IMG/VR virus record: IMGVR_UViG_3300047095_000306
Coordinates: 1-40,262 of that record
Length of the DNA stretch: 40,262 bases
Source: a virus
Reading direction: 5' to 3' (one strand)
Made by a program: the position numbers and the translations under genes. Every line of letters starts with the position of its first letter. The first letter of the stretch is position 1. Below, in pieces: positions 8,617 to 37,399 of this stretch. The notes under the pieces were generated by a model. It made no database searches, had not been told where the DNA came from, and saw nothing but the letters and a program-made list of their open reading frames with translations.

Positions 8617-8654
8617 GAAGGTTGATTTCTAACGACCAGGCCAAGAGGCAGTCA

Positions 8655-9590
8655 ATGATTACAGATCGAATCGACGGGGTTACGGGGATTCCTCCTGAAT
8701 ACCGTAAAGCATCTATCCCTGCGCCGAAGTCGGTAAAGATTGAGCTGACTAGCAAATGCCCATACCGTTGTTCGTTTTGTGCCAACAAGGACATTACGGA
8801 CAAGGGAGAGATGACTTGGGAGACCTACACCGCTGTCGTGGATGAATGCCTAACCGTTGGAATCGAGGAAATAGGCGTTTTCCTGATCGGCGAGAGTTTC
8901 ATGTGTGATTGGTTGCCGGAAGCGATCAAGTACGCCAAAGACGCTGGTTGTAAGTACGTTTTCCTGACATCTAACGGCTATCTCTGCACTTCTGATCGGG
9001 TCCAAGCCTGCATGGATGCTGGCCTTGATAGCCTGAAGTTTAGTTTCAACTACTCGACCCCCGAGCAGTTGAAGGAAATTGCCAAGGTCAAGAAATCGGC
9101 CTTCGAGAAGGTAATACAGAACATCATCGCGGCAAGGGGAATCCGTGACGAAGGCAACTATCCATGCCGTCTGTACGCCTCAAGCATCAAGTTTGAGGGT
9201 GAGCAGATGGAACGCATGGCCCCTGTACTTGAACGAATTAGCCCGTACCTTGATGAAACCTATTTTCTGCCGCTTTTTAGTTTCTCGGATCAAAAGGTTG
9301 TAGAGACCGAGGGCGCACTAGGGTTCAAGCCTGTTGCTGGAAACCCTGGCAGGGCAGGGAATATGCGAGACCCGCTCCCTTGCTGGAGTGTAAGCCGGGA
9401 AATGCACATAGATCGGCACGGGAATCTTAACGCTTGCTGCTTTGGCGGCGACGATTTCATCATGGGAAACTTCAAAGACGGGATAATGAACGTCTGGAAC
9501 AACGAAAAATTCCAAAACCTGCGACTTGCCCATCTTGCAAAGGATGTATCGGGTACGCCTTGCGCCAAGTGCGCCGTAGGGGGTTATTAA
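8655..9590 (+). CDS. Radical SAM protein with SPASM-like C-terminus
   Basis: The 311-aa protein has the radical SAM cluster motif C35-x3-C39-x2-C42 (CPYRCSFC), a TIM-barrel-like body and a C-terminal set of cysteines (CWS near 250, CCFGG near 270, CAKCAVGG at the end) like SPASM/twitch auxiliary iron-sulfur sites. It probably makes a radical-based change in a small molecule, sugar or peptide. The ATG at 8655 follows AGAGGCAG. The stop overlaps the glycosyltransferase start (TAATG), so the two are coupled and may act in one pathway. It is not a QueE by its motifs. Confidence 0.85.
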   Translation: MITDRIDGVTGIPPEYRKASIPAPKSVKIELTSKCPYRCSFCANKDITDKGEMTWETYTAVVDECLTVGIEEIGVFLIGESFMCDWLPEAIKYAKDAGCKYVFLTSNGYLCTSDRVQACMDAGLDSLKFSFNYSTPEQLKEIAKVKKSAFEKVIQNIIAARGIRDEGNYPCRLYASSIKFEGEQMERMAPVLERISPYLDETYFLPLFSFSDQKVVETEGALGFKPVAGNPGRAGNMRDPLPCWSVSREMHIDRHGNLNACCFGGDDFIMGNFKDGIMNVWNNEKFQNLRLAHLAKDVSGTPCAKCAVGGY

Positions 9591-10261
9591 TGGAAATCTG
9601 GATAGGTTACGACCCCAGAGAAGCAATAGCCTTCCATACCTGCGTCAATTCGATAATCCGCCACGCATCCAAGCCGGTCACGATCCACCCTCTAGCTTTG
9701 AACAACATCCCCGGCTACGAGGAAAAGCACACGGACGGATCAAACCAGTTCATCTATTCCCGCTTCCTTGTCCCCTGGTTGATGTCTTGGAAGGGAACAG
9801 CGATATTCATGGATGGGGATATGGTCGTGACTGACGATATACACAAGATCACACAGAACATTGGCGGGAATCAACCCGTGCACGTGGTAAAACACGACTA
9901 CACCCCTAAAGACACGACCAAGTACCTTGGAGCCAAACAAACCGCCTACCCCCGCAAGAACTGGTCAAGCGTGATAGTCTGGAACTGCGACCACTTTGCC
10001 AACAGGAAGCTAACGCCAGAGTTCATCCAAGAAGCTACAGGAGAATACCTACACCGATTCCAGTGGTTGAAAGACGAACAGATAGGGGAACTAGACCCCG
10101 CCTGGAACTGGCTAAGTCAAGAGTTCGGCCCGAAGCCAGACGCTAAACTGATCCACTGGACTTGCGGAACTCCCTGCTTCCATGAGTACGCTACATCAGA
10201 AATGTCTAATATATGGCACAAGGAACGGATGCTTACAAACCACTCGGATCAAGTGCTATAG
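9590..10261 (+). CDS. Glycosyltransferase, GT-A fold (GT8-like)
   Basis: The 223-aa protein starts MEIWIGYDPREAIAFHTC, a common opening of small GT8-like enzymes, and has the metal- and nucleotide-sugar-binding D-x-D motif at 75-77 (FMDGDMVV). A later IHWTCGTPC block corresponds to the second metal site region. It would move a sugar from a nucleotide donor to an unknown acceptor. Translation is coupled to the radical SAM gene. Confidence 0.8.
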   Translation: MEIWIGYDPREAIAFHTCVNSIIRHASKPVTIHPLALNNIPGYEEKHTDGSNQFIYSRFLVPWLMSWKGTAIFMDGDMVVTDDIHKITQNIGGNQPVHVVKHDYTPKDTTKYLGAKQTAYPRKNWSSVIVWNCDHFANRKLTPEFIQEATGEYLHRFQWLKDEQIGELDPAWNWLSQEFGPKPDAKLIHWTCGTPCFHEYATSEMSNIWHKERMLTNHSDQVL

Positions 10262-10310: not shown

Positions 10311-10601
10311 ATGCCTTGGGAACCGGGACAATCTGGAAACCCTGACGGTGCTAAAAAGCACAAGGTGTTCTATGCTGCTTTGAATCGGGCTATCCTTCAA
10401 GAGGATGGTCTGAGAGTCCGTAAAGCCGCTGAAAAGCTCCTAGACCTTGCCTCAGAAGGCGAGGCATGGGCAATCAAGGAACTACGGGATACGCTGGACG
10501 GGAAGCCCGGTCTTGCTATTGACTTGGGAAGCGACCCCGAGCGCCCGATGATAACCAAGCTGGTGCGAGAGATTGTCCGCGCTAACGATCAAGACCGCTG
10601 A
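10311..10601 (+). CDS. terS: Terminase small subunit
   Basis: A 96-aa protein whose start (PWEPGQSGNPDG) is the motif common to many phage TerS and DUF5681-like proteins, followed by helices (KAAEKLLDLASEGEAWAIKE) that fit the oligomerising and DNA-recognition part. TerS binds the packaging site and hands DNA to TerL. It directly precedes and overlaps TerL by 29 bases. About 50 AT-rich bases lie upstream with no clear Shine-Dalgarno. Confidence 0.75.
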   Translation: MPWEPGQSGNPDGAKKHKVFYAALNRAILQEDGLRVRKAAEKLLDLASEGEAWAIKELRDTLDGKPGLAIDLGSDPERPMITKLVREIVRANDQDR

Positions 10602-12720
10602 AGTCTTTGAACCTTTGCTGCATCCGGCCCGAGACAAAGCCGCCTATGGTGGCAGAGGTAGCGGGAAGTCAAACGTGTTTGCTGACATGCTCATTGAAGA
10701 CTCACTAGCCGAGCCTGGCGAGTCAGGGGAAGGTCTAAGGTCTGTCTGCATCCGAGAGATTCAGAAGGACTTGGCGCAATCATCCAAAGCCCTCCTAGAG
10801 TCAAAGCTTAGAAGTCTGGGTCTTGGAGAACCGGACGGGTTCAAAGTCTTTAGGGATGTGATTGAAACCCCCCAAGACGGAATCATCATCTTCAAGGGGA
10901 TGAACGACTACACCGCAGACTCGATCAAGTCCTTAGAGGGGTTTAAACGAGGTTGGTGGGAAGAAGCCCAAGGAGCTACACAGAACTCCATCAACCTGTA
11001 CAGACCTACGATGCGGGCTTCTGGGTCTCAGATGTGGTGGAGTTGGAACCCCAGACGCAAGACCGACCCTGTGGATATTATGTTTCGTGGTGAAGAAAAG
11101 CCTACCGGGGCAACGGTAGTCCATGCCAACTGGAGAGATAACCCTTGGTTCACCGCAGAACTGGAACAAGAGCGCCAAGACTGCCTGAGAATCCAGCCTG
11201 ACCAATACGACCATATTTGGGAAGGCGGCTACATTTCGATCATCGCCGGAGCCTATTACGCCAAGTCGCTTGCAGTAGCCAAAGGGGAAGGAAGGATTGG
11301 CAGGGTTGCTGCTGATCCCCTGATGACGCTCCGGGCTTTCGTGGATATTGGCGGGACAGGGGCGAGAGCGGACGCCTTCTCAATGTGGATCGGTCAGTTC
11401 GTTGGCCGTGAGATTCGAGTATTGGACTATTACGAGGCCATCGGACAACCTTTATCGGCTCACCTTAACTGGATGCGGGACAAAGGCTATACGTCGGATC
11501 GGTGCCAGTTCTGGCTACCCCATGACGGAGCGAGTAACGATAAGGTCTATGATGTGTCCTATGAGTCTGCTTTGATGGCCGCAGGGTACAAGGTCACAGT
11601 GGTCAAGAACCAAGGCAAGGGCGCGGCTAAAGCGAGAATAGAGGCAGGAAGAAGGCTATTCCCTCAGATGTGGTTCGACAACAAGACTCAACCTGGACTA
11701 GATGCTCTGGGCTGGTATCACGAAAAGAAGGATGAAGTCAGGGGAATTGGATTAGGACCGGAGCATGATTGGGCTTGCTTGGTTGGCAGCACGAAAGTCT
11801 TGACGCGTTACGGAATACATCAGATAATGGAGCTTCCTATTACTGGTGAGGTAATGACACCATGCGGCTGGAAGCGATACATAAATCCGAGGATCACTCG
11901 GCGGAATGCCCGACTTGTCGAGGTGCAATTCACAGACGGCCATACGGTGAAATGTACGGCGGATCATTTATTCTTGACGGCAAGCGGGTGGAAATTCGCG
12001 GGGTCGTTGCGGAAGGGTTCATTGACCCGATCTACCTTGACGCAGCAACACAGTATTTTGACGGCGGTTTATATCGCCTGTGGCCTAGTGACAGGTATTT
12101 CAGTAGGGGCGGTAGGAAGTTGCATAGAGATGTTTGGATTGGAGCGTTCGGGCCTATTCCGAAAGGCTGCCACATACATCACAAAGACAGCAACCCAGCT
12201 AACAACTCATTGGAAAACCTTGAGTGCATGGATGCAAGCGAGCATCTTCGGCATACATGGGCAACTGGCTCTAAGTCAAAATACGCGCCAGGGCAGCATT
12301 TCAGCGATACAGCAAGGCTTAAGGCAGCAGAGTGGCACGCATCTGAGGCCGGAAGGTTATGGCATCGCAGGCACGCAGAACGAAGCAAGTCATGGACAAA
12401 ATGGAAGCGGGAACCAAAGCCATGCCCTGAGTGCGGAAAAACGTTCGATGCTCTTGTTAGAAAGAGCGGGAACGCGCAGATTTATTGCGGCGAACCCTGC
12501 AAAGTGGCTGCGTATAGAAGGCGTCAAAAGGACGAACGAGCAGCAAGACGTATGGTGCTTAACGGTTCCTGATGTGCATTGCTTCTCATTGGCTAATGGG
12601 GCGGTCGTGCATAACTCGCATGGCGCGGATAGTTTCGGCTTGCTGTGTGTAGCTTACGAATTGCCCGACAAGAGCAAGGAAAAACCTATCCAATACCCCA
12701 AAAATAGTGGTATCGTATGA
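10573..12720 (+). CDS. terL: Terminase large subunit interrupted by an intein
   Basis: The precursor is 715 aa; removing the intein (residues 402-681) leaves 435 aa, normal for TerL. The ATPase part has Walker A GGRGSGKS (26-33) and a WWEEAQ Walker B-like block. The nuclease part starts at FVDIGG and ends with HDWA|SHGADSF, the conserved third metal-site motif, and the intein sits exactly at the bar. Splicing is therefore needed for a working packaging motor. The start is a TTG inside terS with a weak GAGAG upstream; no better start lies before the Walker A. Motor, DNA cutting and capsid filling are the expected roles. Confidence 0.92.
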   Translation: MSALTIKTAEVFEPLLHPARDKAAYGGRGSGKSNVFADMLIEDSLAEPGESGEGLRSVCIREIQKDLAQSSKALLESKLRSLGLGEPDGFKVFRDVIETPQDGIIIFKGMNDYTADSIKSLEGFKRGWWEEAQGATQNSINLYRPTMRASGSQMWWSWNPRRKTDPVDIMFRGEEKPTGATVVHANWRDNPWFTAELEQERQDCLRIQPDQYDHIWEGGYISIIAGAYYAKSLAVAKGEGRIGRVAADPLMTLRAFVDIGGTGARADAFSMWIGQFVGREIRVLDYYEAIGQPLSAHLNWMRDKGYTSDRCQFWLPHDGASNDKVYDVSYESALMAAGYKVTVVKNQGKGAAKARIEAGRRLFPQMWFDNKTQPGLDALGWYHEKKDEVRGIGLGPEHDWACLVGSTKVLTRYGIHQIMELPITGEVMTPCGWKRYINPRITRRNARLVEVQFTDGHTVKCTADHLFLTASGWKFAGSLRKGSLTRSTLTQQHSILTAVYIACGLVTGISVGAVGSCIEMFGLERSGLFRKAATYITKTATQLTTHWKTLSAWMQASIFGIHGQLALSQNTRQGSISAIQQGLRQQSGTHLRPEGYGIAGTQNEASHGQNGSGNQSHALSAEKRSMLLLERAGTRRFIAANPAKWLRIEGVKRTNEQQDVWCLTVPDVHCFSLANGAVVHNSHGADSFGLLCVAYELPDKSKEKPIQYPKNSGIV
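11776..12615 (+). other. TerL intein (280 aa) with nested out-of-frame endonuclease
   Basis: In the TerL frame the insert starts with Cys (11776) and block A (CLVGSTKV). Block B holds the T-x-x-H motif (CTADH). It ends in block F (VPDVHCFSLANGAVV) and block G (VHN) followed by Ser+1 at 12616. These are all residues of standard class 1 protein splicing. The middle, about residues 80-255 of the insert, is low-information sequence in this frame, but the same DNA encodes an HNH endonuclease in another frame (11952-12572). Confidence 0.9.
11952..12572 (+). CDS. HNH homing endonuclease nested in the intein, other frame
   Basis: Read one base out of phase with TerL, this 206-aa protein has a convincing HNH domain: RYFSRGGRKLHRDVW, FGPIPKG, HIHHKD (74-79), NPANNSLENLECM, SEHLRHTW. 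A C-terminal zinc finger follows (C158, C161, C179, C183) with a basic tail. Homing HNH enzymes cut intein-less alleles and copy the element in by repair. The frame is open from an ATG at 11862, but the segment before 11952 overlaps essential splicing blocks, so the ATG at 11952 is my choice. It stops inside block F of the intein. Confidence 0.85.
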   Translation: MYGGSFILDGKRVEIRGVVAEGFIDPIYLDAATQYFDGGLYRLWPSDRYFSRGGRKLHRDVWIGAFGPIPKGCHIHHKDSNPANNSLENLECMDASEHLRHTWATGSKSKYAPGQHFSDTARLKAAEWHASEAGRLWHRRHAERSKSWTKWKREPKPCPECGKTFDALVRKSGNAQIYCGEPCKVAAYRRRQKDERAARRMVLNGS

Positions 12721-36652: not shown

Positions 36653-37399
36653 CTAGCAAAACATATCGTCTGTAAATTGTTCTTCAGTAAATCTCTCGGA
36701 TGAATTGAAAGACTCGACTTTTGCCATAATTACTCGCGCCCGCCAAGACGGCGACGATGGAGCGTATCTTCCGTCCCAAGCACGGTCTATTCCGCAGTTC
36801 CTACCGGCGTTTGTGCTGTCACCAGATGAGAACGGATACAACTGGAACATTTCAGGCGCAAGGCCGCGCAGCATGTGAATCTTGGTCTTTGGTTGATTGT
36901 TTTCATCGCAAATCAACTTCATGGCCCAATTCATTCTTTCCCGCCATTTGAAGCATCCGACTTGCGAGAAATCTCCACTTGATCCAATGGCAATTCGTTT
37001 GTAGGCGTGTGCAAGGTATTTAAGTTTTGTATCCGATTCGTGCATGTGCCAAACAGGTACGCCGAAGGACATCGCATCCTCGTGGAACCACTCAGACCAT
37101 CTAGCCATGAGCTTAAGGTTTGCCGTTTCATCTCCGTCGATCACATCGGGAATGACTGCCCAATCCACGCAGGGGTGCCGCATTAGTTTCTGAGCCCACC
37201 GGAAAAAATCGTCCCATTCGATAGCCTTTCCTGATTTCCATGCCGAGAATGCCCCGTTGTCCAAAGCAATTGACTGGCAAACCTCTAGGCATATCTGCAA
37301 CTGAGCAGGAGCAGCAAATGATACAAAGGCATGACGGCCTATCAACGCTTCGGCAGCTTCGGAGTTTGACCCACTAAACGGGGTTCCGTGGTATTTAAT
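36653..37399 (-). CDS. dpdA: DpdA-like DNA 7-deazaguanine transglycosylase
   Basis: The roughly 248-aa protein matches phage DpdA, a tRNA-guanine-transglycosylase relative that swaps guanine in DNA for preQ0 or related bases. Visible blocks are IIKYHGTPFSGSNS and RHAFVSFA at the start, IALDNGAFSAWKSGK, DWAVIPDVIDGD with candidate catalytic acids, VPVWHMHES, IAIGSSGDF and IHMLRGLAP. The conserved start lies before any in-frame ATG/GTG/TTG: only ATT (37399) or ATC is available. An ATG at 37407-37405 directly follows the queD stop but is one base out of frame, which suggests a one-base error or mutation. The first standard in-frame start, TTG at 37345, would cut off the conserved block. Confidence 0.8.
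   Translation of the reverse strand: MKYHGTPFSGSNSEAAEALIGRHAFVSFAAPAQLQICLEVCQSIALDNGAFSAWKSGKAIEWDDFFRWAQKLMRHPCVDWAVIPDVIDGDETANLKLMARWSEWFHEDAMSFGVPVWHMHESDTKLKYLAHAYKRIAIGSSGDFSQVGCFKWRERMNWAMKLICDENNQPKTKIHMLRGLAPEMFQLYPFSSGDSTNAGRNCGIDRAWDGRYAPSSPSWRARVIMAKVESFNSSERFTEEQFTDDMFC

Follow-up and report, generated by a model that had tools for sequence, protein, structure and literature searches.

A terminase mini-intein superimposed on an out-of-frame HNH endonuclease gene, a probable mobile element of phages

The gene for the large terminase subunit (TerL) of a 40 kb virus very probably carries a mobile mini-intein whose homing endonuclease, an HNH enzyme, is encoded as a separate gene superimposed on the intein out of frame. 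In the textbook picture an intein is a single polypeptide that holds its endonuclease in the same frame; in the arrangement described here an essential gene would shelter two selfish functions on the same bases, with the dose of nuclease uncoupled both from splicing and from the dose of TerL. The DNA was analysed as a single window, that is, the whole stretch of 40,262 nucleotides, to which the coordinates below refer; all features of the element lie on the + strand. A first-pass annotation of this DNA had placed a TerL intein at 11776-12615 with an HNH and zinc-finger protein out of phase within it, a description borne out by the open ORF, the motifs and Pfam matches in both frames. Its reading of the element as a mini-intein and an HNH gene superimposed gains support from the out-of-phase overlap and from the HNH gene's own conserved start.

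Results and discussion

A mini-intein in the TerL frame

The TerL ORF (10573-12720; Pfam match Terminase_3) runs uninterrupted through the insert, and a split intein or fractured gene was rejected for this locus because of that continuity. The N-extein, which includes Terminase_3, spans 10573-11775 (ORF list, Pfam and empty-site alignment, with a putative TTG start called by the ORF tool), and the C-extein (12616-12720; ORF list and empty-site alignment), which begins SHGADSFGLL, surrounds the last conserved nuclease motif. Between them lies an intein of 280 aa (11776-12615), delimited by motifs, Pfam, alignment, AlphaFold and Foldseek, that starts with Cys1, has T-A-D-H at block B (11956-11967) and ends in V-H-N (His279-Asn280) before a +1 Ser. 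The insert in this frame matches Pfam Intein_splicing with an E of 7.6e-12, and residues C1, T61, H64, H279 and N280 are invariant in the family alignment. Thus the features of a class 1-like intein are present, namely Cys1, T-x-x-H, His-Asn followed by Ser, a predicted HINT fold, and exact insertion with intein-less alleles.

AlphaFold gave residues 1-88 and 242-280 pLDDT values mostly of 92-97, which fall somewhat towards the inner edges, and most of residues 90-213 values of about 25-35; Foldseek searches with this model matched MchDnaB-1, gp41-1 (TM 0.86 by target), Mtu RecA and other inteins. Because of this pLDDT pattern and these matches, the TerL frame is modelled as a mini-intein with an unstructured middle: an N-terminal splicing (HINT) domain (11776-12039, residues 1-88, including block B; from pLDDT and alignment), a mostly unstructured middle (12040-12498) that acts as carrier for the HNH core, and a C-terminal splicing domain (12499-12615, residues 242-280; from alignment and AlphaFold) that overlaps the 3' end of the HNH gene. 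The intein is predicted to be spliced out of TerL. No endonuclease domain was found in the intein's own frame, and a canonical endonuclease-containing intein was rejected since the HNH lies solely in the offset frame. A group I intron was likewise rejected, as an Rfam search of the insert found no intron match, and hence no ribozyme fold, at E up to 1.

The superimposed HNH gene and the probable mobility of the element

The HNH homing endonuclease gene (11862-12572, 236 aa) is read one base off TerL and was delimited by the ORF list, Pfam, and stop, selection and codon tests. Its HNH_3 domain lies at 12117-12251 (Pfam E 9.7e-15 in the frame offset by one base) and its C-terminal zinc finger at 12423-12500; the alignment shows H106, H107 and N119 to be invariant, together with the four zinc-finger cysteines C188, C191, C209 and C213. 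The predicted structure is of medium quality (pLDDT 71.5), and its best PDB match, I-HmuI, is weak (E 0.15). The protein may cleave intein-less terL and probably helps the intein to spread.

Among the 80 nearest TerLs (70-81% identical), 78 have no insert at the site, which reads GLGPEHDW[AS]/SHGAD with the slash at the insertion point; this count includes one contig (L259) that stops two residues past the site without an insert, and holds only if that contig is accepted as empty. In another of the 80 (L242:3684-4217), an intein of a different family sits at exactly the same TerL site, itself with an out-of-frame HNH_3 gene that has its own Shine-Dalgarno sequence. The intein and HNH are 57-72% identical across phages whose TerLs share 22-30% (for example, HNH 69% vs TerL 27%). 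Together, the empty sites and an element whose similarity between phages far exceeds that of their TerLs point to horizontal transfer.

An accessory role of the nuclease in DNA packaging, like that of HNH proteins beside terminases in HK97-like phages and with no homing involved, is unlikely. Free-standing relatives of the gene do adjoin terL in phages PAE1, SN1, FBPa53, EauM-23, PhiSTP1, Poludnitsa and BP10, and both roles have been discussed for HNH genes near terminases (PMC10448857), but the sporadic distribution, with those 78 of 80 nearest TerLs empty, the disagreement between element and TerL similarities, and the placement within an intein at varying nearby sites all argue against it.

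The intein codons write the HNH translation start

In the window, the HNH ATG is formed by the intein codons CCA TGC (Pro-Cys) and stands 9 nt after a conserved Shine-Dalgarno-like GGTGAGGT (11845-11852) that comes from the intein codons for G-E-V. In the main clade of relatives, type A, it is the intein motif G-E-V-L-T-x-C-G-W that spells out GGAGAGGT, a 9-nt spacer and the ATG of the HNH frame. Of 69 codons directly preceding the Cys, 68 end in A vs 12.2 expected from each TerL's own codon usage, even though the amino acid encoded varies (P, S, L, Q, R, E and others). A Shine-Dalgarno match of at least 5 nt precedes 58 of 68 type-A starts vs 7.6% of extein ATGs in that phase, taken as controls. 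Further downstream, a CxxC pair in the HNH frame (Cys16 and Cys19, 11907-11918) overlies intein N-A-x-L-V through dual-coding codons, and the two codons that write these cysteines both end in T in 76 of 76 sequences (29.7 and 13.2 expected). P values for these signatures assume independent sequences and so are too small given shared ancestry.

A second in-frame Met codon (11952-11954), from intein AAA TGT, is retained in 77 of 80 sequences vs 22.4 expected. The first-pass annotation had begun the HNH gene there; this Met is indeed conserved, but it is the ATG at 11862 that carries the conserved Shine-Dalgarno sequence, and the Met at 11952 may be a second start or merely a required residue. 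A few type-A members lack an ATG at the position equivalent to 11862 and may start elsewhere. These signals give the HNH gene a conserved translation start of its own, from which it would be translated separately. The earlier claim that the nuclease can be made independently of TerL is upheld for translation signals only; the HNH gene and terL probably share their transcription.

Programmed ribosomal frameshifting from TerL, which would yield an N-intein-HNH fusion with no internal initiation, is very improbable. The two frames are co-oriented and overlapping, and HNH-frame openings extend well upstream of the ATG in some relatives, as a frameshift would allow; in the window, however, the HNH ORF opens only at 11850, and a stop 12 nt before the ATG leaves almost no room for a shift, while both the Shine-Dalgarno sequence and the ATG are conserved where the amino acids change. 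Both an in-frame HNH and a frameshift fusion were therefore rejected, given the offset frame of the HNH and the stop just upstream of its ATG.

Both frames are kept open, and both are constrained in part

When synonymous HNH codons of the window were permuted, with protein and codon usage preserved, 3.25 stops were expected in the TerL frame and zero stops occurred in 0.3% of shuffles (P(0) = 0.003). The first-pass figure of once in ten thousand for such openness by chance was too strong for a single copy, but the idea behind it holds for the family: across 55 related loci, of which many are related, a few are near-copies and not all are independent, the splicing frame has 0 stops vs 130.5 expected from synonymous shuffles. 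The third frame has about 20 stops per locus, and the frame kept open in the inteins is broken by 7-8 stops in nine free-standing relatives, so phase bias alone is insufficient and was rejected as a full explanation.

Substitution rates from five close pairs indicate purifying selection on the HNH core (omega_HNH 0.16). Over the overlap with the N-splicing domain (11862-12020), omega_HNH is 0.33 and omega_host 0.28, and both frames are thus constrained there. In the core (12021-12505), omega_host is 0.54, a value confounded by HNH codon position and no clean estimate; substitutions silent in HNH that alter the intein are 2.7-fold commoner in the core than in the N-overlap (P 2e-6, with P values for selection ignoring shared ancestry). 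The two-frame dN/dS proposed by the first-pass annotation has therefore qualified one of its own statements, that the splicing frame is constrained only to avoid stops, which roughly fits the core but fails over 11862-12020, and is contradicted as well by intein codons chosen to write the HNH start and the CxxC pair. The superimposed genes offer a large natural data set for overprinting and, for protein engineers, natural examples of entangled coding.

The overlap recurs in distinct phages

HNH- and intein-based scans over viral contigs and over phage and genome collections, which took up a proposed search of homologues for the same overlap, gave 203 loci. These hold 107 unique HNH sequences, or 95 clusters when grouped at 90% identity, and share one offset and a long open host frame throughout. 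The intein protein as a lone query had no match among viral contigs, and an alignment-based search proved necessary. Type-A insertions with both splice ends readable occupy several adjacent positions at the last conserved motif of TerL (HDW-SH-xDAF). Carriers among cultured phages and complete genomes are Tetrasphaera phage TJE1, Rhodobacteraceae phage LS06-2018-MD07 and Acinetobacter phage Highwayman, whose annotations give TerL alone at the locus; the overlap offers a reason why phage annotations miss such nucleases. In bacterial genomes, the scan found only 5 distant relatives, of which the overlapped ones are a gammaproteobacterial MAG (L218), Frankia (L219) and a Selenomonadaceae MAG (L222).

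Because over a hundred distinct relatives keep the overlap, the arrangement is real and selected, neither chance nor assembly error. A chance open frame, or an assembly or sequencing artefact of an in-frame HNH intein, has a negligible probability and is refuted by recurrence; one zero-stop frame (P ~0.003) is not negligible alone, but the same phase and boundaries return in >100 distinct sequences from separate assemblies and in the three named phages. No compensating indels that would put the HNH in the TerL frame appeared, and no broken HNH frame with an intact intein occurred among the type-A homologues examined, which are the two outcomes that the first-pass annotation had named as counting against it.

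Proposed mechanism, origin and variant forms

We propose that the TerL frame is translated across the whole element, and that the HINT halves would fold around the unstructured middle, splice the element out and restore TerL. On the same mRNA, ribosomes would start at the internal Shine-Dalgarno sequence and ATG within the N-splicing domain and produce the HNH and zinc-finger nuclease, which, when another phage infects the same cell, may cleave its intein-less terL at the conserved motif HDW-SHGAD. Repair would then copy the element into the cut terL, as the empty sites and the incongruent similarities suggest. The nuclease probably originated from free-standing HNH homing endonucleases flanking terL, and some copies may later become two-piece TerL genes.

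In the HNH tree, type A forms one clade (92/84) and overlapped type-B genes are interleaved with free-standing ones. Phage BP10, with a free-standing gene upstream of terS, pairs with Highwayman, where the gene is overlapped; their HNH proteins are 50% identical and their flanking DNA is 92-96% identical in parts. Two more distant phages have split TerL genes: Lactobacillus phage CL2 (L304:1562-2750) has an N-intein, a stop, an HNH ORF and a C-intein in another frame, and Brochothrix phage BL3 (L305:727-2607) has only C-terminal HNH zinc fingers between its TerL halves. Both TerLs, split within the intein, are probable natural split inteins and look like further stages of the same history. These forms are consistent with a route whose proposed direction runs from a free-standing HNH, through an out-of-frame gene in an intein, to a split intein, and that would concretely link free-standing endonucleases, mini-inteins and split inteins. 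With somewhat more confidence than doubt, we favour a widespread class of mobile phage elements that arose when mini-inteins, in at least two intein/HNH lineages, were invaded out of frame by a homing endonuclease gene that had stood free; one stretch of DNA then encodes a splicing domain and a separately initiated nuclease, the intein was reshaped to carry the ribosome-binding site, start codon and zinc ligands, and routes lead to free-standing and split-intein forms.

One further locus (L006:2983-3390) encodes a compact TerL mini-intein of 136 aa without an HNH, whose N-half is related to the window intein; it is a candidate ancestor or deletion derivative, and as a query it found nothing in viral contigs.

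Relation to known systems

Fractured genes, as in Dassa et al. 2009, which PMC10448857 cites, are reportedly inteins split in two, with an endonuclease gene standing free between the parts. The present element resembles them in that a separately translated endonuclease lies between two halves of a mini-intein, but the window TerL is one unbroken ORF, and it is the relatives CL2 and BL3 that are split. By their titles, a bioRxiv preprint of Gosselin et al. 2025 (2025.01.02.630785) is said to treat actinobacteriophage inteins of non-canonical architecture, and Gorbalenya 1998 reportedly deals with non-canonical inteins. In the papers covered by our literature search, no account of an intein whose endonuclease is out of frame came up. 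PMC11855218 cites both works near a sentence about overlapping frames, and this sentence and the titles suggest that they concern related architectures.

A close parallel described in that paper is the ShiLan domain, or Pacc40 insertion, an out-of-frame HNH in phage DNA methylases (PMC11855218). As in the window, HNH and zinc fingers are hidden in a frame other than the host's, which itself reads open through the insertion, and the insertion is sporadic and apparently homing; unlike the window element, ShiLan has no splicing domain or detectable ribosome-binding site, and a leaderless start has been proposed, whereas here a complete intein is joined to a conserved Shine-Dalgarno sequence and ATG. 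A ShiLan-type insertion was rejected for the window since the host frame has a splicing domain (Intein_splicing, 7.6e-12). Out-of-frame HNH insertion has thus already been published, though with no intein, and part of the present finding is possibly already described.

Canonical endonuclease inteins, such as SPbeta RIR1 and the mycobacteriophage TerL inteins with LAGLIDADG (PMC5050341), similarly pair a homing endonuclease with a HINT domain inserted at a conserved position in an essential gene, but there the endonuclease shares the intein's frame and belongs to the spliced protein, as was checked for SPbeta RIR1; this intein was rejected as an earlier case because it is an ordinary in-frame LAGLIDADG intein. 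One locus in our set (L018:305-3856) has a single ORF that unites an in-frame LAGLIDADG intein of the canonical kind with another intein whose HNH is out of frame. Group I introns with internal endonuclease ORFs and the free-standing endonuclease genes of collaborative homing (PMC10448857) also link a separately translated endonuclease to a self-removing element; unlike group I introns, the window element matched no Rfam intron and would be removed at the protein level.

Elsewhere in the window, a Radical SAM/SPASM protein (8622-9590) is encoded shortly upstream of the terminase genes, and an ORF overlapping its gene (9434-10261) has a sub-threshold Glyco_transf_8 match, an unusual cargo beside a packaging module. 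The product of 36653-37345 (- strand) matches a PHROG family of queuine tRNA-ribosyltransferases, possibly marking a DNA or tRNA base-modification gene.
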